Source of the DNA: Aporrectodea caliginosa
Lineage: Eukaryota > Annelida > Clitellata > Crassiclitellata > Lumbricidae
DNA: 64,000 bases
Assembly (NCBI GenBank): GCA_020284085.1
Contig: JACEVL010000465.1
Coordinates: 264,001-328,000, forward strand
Reading direction: 5' to 3'
The notes beneath the pieces are model-generated. The model ran no database searches. It was not told the DNA's origin and saw only the letters and a list, made by a program, of their open reading frames with translations. This document shows positions 17,338 to 53,953 of this stretch, one piece after another. Both the position numbers and the translations under genes were made by a program. Positions within the stretch are counted from its first letter, which is position 1. Each line of letters starts with the position of its first letter.

Positions 17338-17398
17338 ATGAACTGCTGGAGATTCATGGTTCTAGCTGTTCTTGCTGGCACCATTACTTATGCTCAAG
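17338..17398 (+). CDS. Gene B exon 1: start codon and signal peptide
   Basis: The ATG opens 20 codons ([14 protein letters not shown]...) of a classic hydrophobic secretion signal and ends with a split codon before gtaag (phase 1). The paralogous exon of gene C (58709-58769) has identical length and begins MNCWSFLALAAL, which fixes the start. The next exon continues at 19067 in the same phase. Confidence 0.88.

Positions 17399-53953: not shown

Follow-up and report, generated by a model that had tools for sequence, protein, structure and literature searches.

Comparison with described GH18 proteins and lectin receptors

To our knowledge, the sensing of chitin at the surface of animal cells is poorly settled. 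The chi-lectins YKL-40, Ym1 and oviductin are secreted, single-domain proteins without a transmembrane (TM) segment, the tobacco receptor CHRK1 has one GH18 domain, and the C-type lectin receptors Dectin-1, CLEC-2 and DNGR-1 are type II membrane proteins. Chitinase-like lectins were described as uncommon in animals in a rotifer survey (PMC8878817). A chitinase of C. gigas has been named as the first one with a TM segment, and oyster Ca-Chit, in which a pair of GH18 domains is combined with a Thr-rich region and a TM segment, has been linked to digestion (PMC4457423). CHRK1 carries a GH18 ectodomain devoid of the catalytic Glu on a membrane receptor (PMC10573068), and 91 plant proteins combine GH18 with a kinase, the GH18 domain there being taken as enzymatic (PMC5485988). 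Dectin-1, CLEC-2 and DNGR-1 join a lectin ectodomain to a TM segment and a hemITAM or similar tail (PMC10008955). For engulfment receptors with a tyrosine tail, the model is provided by Draper, Megf10 and CED-1 (PMC8092387).

The predicted product of gene B, located in the analyzed window (the whole stretch of 64,000 nucleotides, C464:264001-328000), shares with Ca-Chit and Cg-Chit (molluscan chitinase 3) the GH18 fold, a Thr-rich stretch and a C-terminal TM anchor (PMC4457423). Ca-Chit, compared by its published description, differs in having two putative catalytically active domains, and the available part of the oyster report makes no mention of a tyrosine-repeat tail or of a relation to C-type lectin receptors (PMC4457423). 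CHRK1 is set apart from gene B by its plant class V chitinase type and its cytoplasmic kinase domain. The possible likeness to the chi-lectins lies in the GH18 fold, with the acid residue lost from most modules and the cleft kept at least in its tryptophans. With respect to Dectin-1, CLEC-2 and DNGR-1, gene B would encode a type I protein, its ectodomain is of GH18 rather than CTLD type, and its tail derives from the CTLD family. The best matches among named proteins are the Eisenia andrei chitinases P0002 and P0004, 62-65% identical in module sequence, which points to an earthworm or a near relative as the source of the DNA. P0004 shares the E140Q change; P0002 ends in CBM14, P0004 ends soon after one module, and no TM segment was seen in either.

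The initial annotation knew of no established family in which largely catalytically dead GH18 repeats are joined to a TM helix and an ITAM-like tail. This was overstated, as both GH18 with a TM segment (oyster Ca-Chit and Cg-Chit; PMC4457423) and GH18 on a receptor kinase (tobacco CHRK1; PMC10573068) are already known. Among the literature matches listed, as judged from titles and opening lines, there was no report of an annelid GH18 receptor with a tyrosine tail, nor of any receptor combining GH18 with the tail of a C-type lectin receptor, and the chimera described below seems to be new.

Structure of gene B and its neighbours

The window belongs to a genome of 1.10 Gb in 4544 contigs. The predicted gene model, rebuilt with exact splice sites, occupies positions 17338-53953 of the plus strand and comprises 34 exons; all 33 introns are GT-AG and all phases are compatible. 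The coding sequence of 7413 nt specifies 2470 amino acids (aa), the sole stop being the terminal one. The predicted protein consists of a signal peptide, GH18 modules 1-4 with a long Thr-rich stalk between modules 2 and 3, one TM helix and a 201-aa tail. Exons outside the modules and the neighbouring genes are as follows.

1..13932 (start outside the window, C464:261385), + strand: gene A, one GH18 module (DIHFLYP) with signal peptide, TM segment and tail; similarity search, exon flanks
17338..17398, + strand: exon 1 of gene B, containing the start codon and encoding the signal peptide (20 protein letters); exon model; resembles the start of Eisenia andrei P0004
24364..24407, + strand: short Thr/Asn-rich linker exon downstream of module 1; exon model
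34039..36182, + strand: mucin-like stalk exon; exon model, repeat analysis
52656..52746, + strand: TM exon (30 protein letters); exon model, similarity search, hydropathy
53347..53953, + strand: exon of the cytoplasmic tail, with one YxxL in each of its four units (about 41-43 aa); exon model, similarity search
58709..59483, + strand: start of gene C, the signal peptide being encoded at 58709-58768 and the first GH18 exon lying at 59301-59483; similarity search

The exon positions, the in-phase junctions and the divisibility of the total by three given in the initial annotation were all borne out. Its total of 7404 nt preserved the frame but was 9 nt short, probably because of CAGCAG double acceptors at the first exons of modules 1-3 (modules 2 and 3 start at 25561 and 37441, and the earlier starts, 25564 and 37444, lie 3 nt downstream). 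The long stalk is a single exon built of a 30-bp repeat (70.8 copies), and its approximately 714 residues include 429 Thr, 111 Pro, 98 Ser and 73 Ala.

By similarity, one signal-peptide exon of the gene B type and one TM exon are present within 17338-53953, and the best 19-residue hydropathy window of the protein reaches 2.95 compared with 1.29 for the runner-up, in agreement with the single signal peptide and single TM helix originally proposed. Poly-A-like signals between the modules were uninformative. The same region could instead hold several separate genes, one per module, with the TM-tail exons as the remnant of an orphan receptor, and the single module of neighbouring gene A fits such an arrangement. 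However, similarity search detected a single signal-peptide exon within 17338-53953 and none of CTLD type there, the joins across modules are phase-perfect, and GH18-linker-GH18 proteins (P0001 and P0003, predicted from short JGI contigs and inferred cDNA) are found elsewhere, so that separate genes are very improbable. The parts of gene B in all likelihood form one gene.

In gene A, the TM exon lies at 12676-12766 and the tail at 13362-13932. Its stalk exon (10817-10875) contains an in-frame stop, which weakens gene A as a clean example of a one-module gene. In gene C, the signal-peptide exon and the first GH18 exon are intact; no second GH18 exon was found up to position 64000 of the window, and this gene looks truncated or incomplete.

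GH18 modules

A Pfam scan of the gene B protein, run with the long stalk omitted, placed GH18 (PF00704) above the curated cut-off for modules 1+2 (E=1.5e-177) and modules 3+4 (E=7.6e-164); no other domain passed the cut-off and no kinase domain was found. The nearest solved structures are those of acidic mammalian chitinase and chitotriosidase, and relatives in the PDB include CHI3L1 and Ym1. Catalytic and cleft residues were read against the pig acidic-chitinase protein P0094, with columns placed by motif, and are named according to what we take to be the AMCase numbering.

19064..23692, + strand: GH18 module 1; E140 to Gln, M210 to Lys; exon model, Pfam, alignment
Exons of module 1 (+ strand, exon model): 19064-19244, 20062-20314, 21304-21428, 21735-21852, 22116-22301, 22478-22597, 23544-23692
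25561..32522, + strand: GH18 module 2; E140 kept, Y212 to Phe, D213 to Ala, M210 to Thr; exon model, Pfam, alignment
Exons of module 2 (+ strand, exon model): 25561-25741, 27036-27294, 28020-28144, 28402-28522, 31202-31387, 31678-31797, 32386-32522
37441..45890, + strand: GH18 module 3; D138 to Asn, E140 to Gln; exon model, Pfam, alignment
Exons of module 3 (+ strand, exon model): 37441-37621, 38443-38695, 39438-39562, 41163-41304, 44689-44874, 45047-45166, 45742-45890
46707..50381, + strand: GH18 module 4, without the first module exon; E140 to Gln, M210 to Lys, D213 to Gly; exon model, alignment
Exons of module 4 (+ strand, exon model): 46707-46959, 47495-47619, 47897-48014, 48407-48592, 48755-48874, 50245-50381

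The four modules of the earlier description were recovered, but module 4 lacks its first exon (about 60 residues including W31) and is joined directly to module 3, with no stalk between them. The intron at this junction (45891-46706) is recombinant: it aligns over bases 1-587 with the E8-to-stalk introns of module 1 and module 4, and in pieces of bases 589-816 with the intron following the first module exon of module 1. This structure indicates that the linker and the first exon of module 4 were deleted together, leaving the phase undisturbed.

Active GH18 chitinases possess the motif DxxDxDxE together with Met210, Tyr212 and Asp213. This set is complete in none of the four gene B modules, since E140 is replaced by Gln in modules 1, 3 and 4 (module 3 additionally has Asn for D138) and module 2, which kept the Glu, lost Met210, Tyr212 and Asp213; it is also absent from the gene A module (H138, L140, I210), bringing the replacements of E140 to 4/5 in the two genes. 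The proposal that these repeats are largely catalytically dead is supported. The retained DxxDxDxE of module 2 would suit an active multi-domain, membrane-anchored chitinase, but with Y212F, D213A and M210T in that same module and E140Q in the other three, such an enzyme is hardly to be expected.

Cleft residues present a mixed picture. Each of the five modules of genes A and B retains W99, W218 and W360; W31 is retained in four, its exon being absent from module 4. Y267 persists only in module 2 and gene A (Asn, Cys and Phe in modules 1, 3 and 4, respectively), R269 has become Gln in both module 1 and module 4, and N100 has changed to Asp in module 1 and to Leu in module 3. Because positions 267, 269 and 100 are also changed, chitin binding by the modules should not be assumed.

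Pairwise dN/dS values between gene B modules were 0.39-0.48 in eight of nine comparisons and 0.72 for modules 3 and 4. The gene A module gave 0.60, 0.41 and 0.38 against modules 1, 2 and 3, calculated with other, partly wrong exon ends for gene A.

Retention of the catalytic motif, which lies in the second exon, was also counted more widely. In this count, which omitted 16 of the 36 exon matches (those on C3388, C572, C466, C151, C79 and C394), assigned genes by contig order only and included paralogues that are not independent, DxxDxDxE was kept in 2/10 modules of TM-tail genes versus 8/10 on the CBM14 side of C392 and C768 (Fisher p=0.023). C768:26970 has no downstream CBM14 exon, and dropping it changed the latter count to 7/9 with the same p. 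Given the omitted contigs, the order-based assignment and the non-independence of paralogues, the apparent rarity of the motif in TM-tail genes is regarded as a tendency. One GH18 exon located ahead of a TM-tail locus (C392:1213933-1214184) reads DGVNLDFQFP, and its changes (Asn and Gln) are presumably the same two as in mouse Ym1.

Origin of the TM segment and tail

The gene B tail recurs at 19 loci of the genome, as revealed by similarity search, and a TM exon was found near 17 of them; none was present in the stretch examined at C464:231k, and the flank of C392:1169k was outside the comparison. This recurrence led us to reject a chance open reading frame. According to the nearest upstream ectodomain exon, five tail loci are linked to GH18 (genes A and B, C464:446.9k, C392:1205k and C392:1221k), ten to CTLD (C464:58k, 206k, 222k, 245k and 254k; C392:1169k, 1182k and 1192k; C437:77k; C2362) and four have no assignment (C464:69.6k, C464:231k, C437:91k and C231:224k). 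Of the CTLD exons, those of one gene were run against Pfam and scored above the Lectin_C cut-off. Since the TM-tail pair recurs in C-type-lectin receptor genes, it represents a receptor end, and the single-pass, receptor-like layout suggested by the initial annotation is retained. Within 17338-53953 no CTLD exon was found by similarity, and only the TM-tail end of gene B belongs to the CTLD family.

The TM exons of GH18 and CTLD genes alike start after phase 1 and finish in phase 2, as judged from exon flanks. The intron between the TM and tail exons of gene B has counterparts in the CTLD gene at C464:222k (CTLD222), where the match is 71.7% over 357 bp (E=2e-48), and at C392:1182k, where it is 66% over 383 bp (E=3e-23); C464:206k gave two short matches. 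The corresponding introns of gene A and C392:1205k likewise match 222k and 1182k. No intron match to gene B, gene A or C392:1205k was obtained at C464:58k, 69k, 245k and 254k or at C392:1192k. Scanning of positions 50382-53400 then located the switch between the two types of DNA.

50995..51026, + strand: short Thr/Pro linker exon on the GH18-type side; exon model, homology scan
51173..51809, + strand: interval in which the DNA changes from GH18 type to CTLD-receptor type and which holds the fusion breakpoint; homology scan
51972..52049, + strand: juxtamembrane exon on the CTLD-receptor-type side; exon model, homology scan

Homology is of GH18 type over 50382-51172 and, in pieces, of CTLD222 type over 51810-53359, which places the breakpoint within an intron. 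Gene B is therefore very probably, on these sequence comparisons, a chimera with a CTLD receptor end. Gene A switches in the same manner, with GH18-type homology up to 11021 and CTLD-type homology from 12067; this, together with the agreement of the introns, suggests that the intronic fusion probably predates the split of genes A and B. On the minus strand of C392, genes with GH18 and CBM14 exons are followed by those with GH18 and TM-tail exons and then by CTLD genes with the tail, an order consistent with a fusion where two clusters meet.

Cytoplasmic tail

Each of the four in-frame tail units of gene B contains one YxxL motif (YDKL, YDKL, YDIL and YGNL, spaced 41, 41 and 43 residues apart); a fifth unit (53943-54029) is out of frame. 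The sister units, with a rough consensus of 39 protein letters, carry two motifs arranged as YxxL-x11-YxxL (x13 at C464:446.9k). The tail alignment was made without C392:1169k, the out-of-frame fifth unit of gene B and C464:221.6k. The 18 sister units counted lie outside gene A, gene B and the two C392 loci partnered with them; two come from GH18-linked C464:446.9k and some from loci without assignment. Of the 17 that reach the first Tyr, 16 have it, and all 18 have the second; Leu at +3 occurs in 18/18 first and 16/18 second motifs (two Ile). Gene A and the two GH18 loci of C392 together contribute 14 units, of which 12 have the first Tyr, 13 the second and 11 the +3 Leu of each motif. The gene B units have all lost the first Tyr (4/4) and kept the second (4/4). 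In the tail of CTLD222 (C464:221.6k), the CTLD locus whose intron matched best, Phe replaces the first Tyr and a stop precedes the second motif, so that neither is intact in frame.

The ITAM consensus is YxxL/I-x6-8-YxxL/I and that of ITIM is (I/V/L/S)xYxx(L/V) (PMC10008955). Neither the gene B tail nor its sisters conform to the former because their spacings, 41-43 and 11 (or 13) residues, are outside x6-8; the tail had earlier been called ITAM-like, a label that the loss of the first tyrosine in every gene B unit and the sister spacing do not permit. The ITIM consensus is matched by one of the four motifs (LMYGNL), the other three having Arg or Met at -2. A hemITAM is a single YxxL that recruits Syk, and the four YxxL motifs of the tail are candidates for such a role.

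Pairwise dN/dS of the tail was 1.29 for gene B against C392:1205k and 1.15 against gene A (again with partly wrong exon ends for the latter), versus 0.35-0.71 in seven other pairs, the unit-to-unit pairing being uncertain in such repeats. In a three-way comparison, dN (0.197) exceeded dS (0.120) on the gene B branch in 94% of bootstraps, with a 95% range that includes zero, while dN was below dS on the branches of gene A and C392:1205k. On account of these ratios, the receptor end of gene B, though open for 201 residues, is judged to be under weak or changed constraint.

A decaying gene would also explain some of these features: the chimera would once have worked, and the gene B copy would now be drifting with a residual intact frame. 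The lost first exon of module 4, the out-of-frame tail unit 5, the excess of dN on the tail branch, the broken stalk exon of gene A and the incompleteness of gene C within the window all point in this direction. Set against them are 7.4 kb without an internal stop, the integrity of every splice site and the low dN/dS of the modules in 8/9 comparisons, and we consider decay unlikely.

Searches for public-protein homologues of the TM segment and tail gave none at E≤0.1 among 1956 candidates (composite query, lengths of about 320-1020) and none at E≤1 among 3411 candidates (253-aa query), which may merely reflect that no such genome is annotated there.

Putative function of the gene B product

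The sequence comparisons show a GH18-type gene joined inside an intron to the 3' end of a CTLD receptor gene. The resulting product would expose GH18 modules outside the cell and, beyond one TM helix, would place the cytoplasmic tail of the CTLD family inside. With the catalytic centre partly lost and the cleft tryptophans kept, the modules might hold chitin or related GlcNAc chains without cutting them; fungal walls, arthropod or nematode debris and gut content are candidate sources of such ligands. The mucin-like stalk would lift the modules and space them. Clustering could then lead to phosphorylation of the YxxL tyrosines or adaptor binding, and hence to uptake or signalling, a step modelled on the sister CTLD receptors, for which the same behaviour is assumed.

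That the product is a single-pass lectin receptor of chimeric origin, its tail having been borrowed, appears about as likely as not. A role as a surface glycan receptor or uptake receptor is given the same even odds, held down by the cleft losses at positions 100, 267 and 269 and by the broken CTLD222 tail. Surface location, glycan binding, clustering, phosphorylation and uptake, and with them receptor function as such, we infer from the predicted protein. In favour of a receptor we count the in-phase frame, the GH18 match, the shared TM-tail phases, the introns, the breakpoint, the C392 order, the kept tryptophans, the dN/dS of the modules and the tyrosines of the sister tails. Against it stand the dN/dS of 0.72 between modules 3 and 4, the changed cleft residues, the missing first tyrosine of all four tail units and the five tail loci without an intron match. 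Full function is further opposed by module 4 without its first exon, the fast evolution of the tail, the out-of-frame fifth unit, the gene A stop, the apparent incompleteness of gene C and the broken CTLD222 tail.

Tyrosine-kinase signalling by the gene B copy itself is doubtful. The product might alternatively be a membrane-tethered lectin or uptake receptor without kinase signalling, one that acts at the gut or epidermis by binding chitin or clearing it, with its YxxL motifs as sorting signals; YxxL fits YxxPhi, the consensus of such signals. By analogy, oyster Ca-Chit, with its similar layout, is tied to digestion (PMC4457423). The two-tyrosine units kept in most sister tails, however, exceed the need of a single sorting signal, and this alternative is regarded as rather improbable.

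Tentatively, and with odds somewhat below even, the chimeric receptor could represent a new animal immune receptor, in which a GH18 chi-lectin ectodomain was intronically fused to the signalling end of a C-type lectin receptor family that occurs in clusters and then diversified by module number and stalk repeats, one conserved tail reading both CTLD and chitinase-like sensors. If true, animals would have a chitin-lectin receptor made for the purpose, and the gene would clearly illustrate, its breakpoint being confined to a single intron, how an enzyme gene became a receptor by acquiring the tail of an adjoining lectin receptor. The conserved annelid tail common to the CTLD receptor cluster would make signalling directly testable.

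Other sequences in and around the window

Upstream of the window, C464:50001-254500 contains a cluster of genes composed of CTLD exons, a TM exon and a tail. Three of these genes, at 161-192 kb, have a different tail, made of repeated acidic units with YSAV/YAAV motifs. At least 148 related CTLD exons are present in the genome. Long simple-repeat tracts with poly Ile/Leu/Tyr or RE/QR frames occupy positions 54516-55700 and 43300-43560 of the window and showed no sign of coding. Two further segments, one in an intron of module 4 (48884-49523) and one beyond the gene C exons (60565-60858), resemble, on inspection by eye, mutually related fragments of a reverse-transcriptase-type element.
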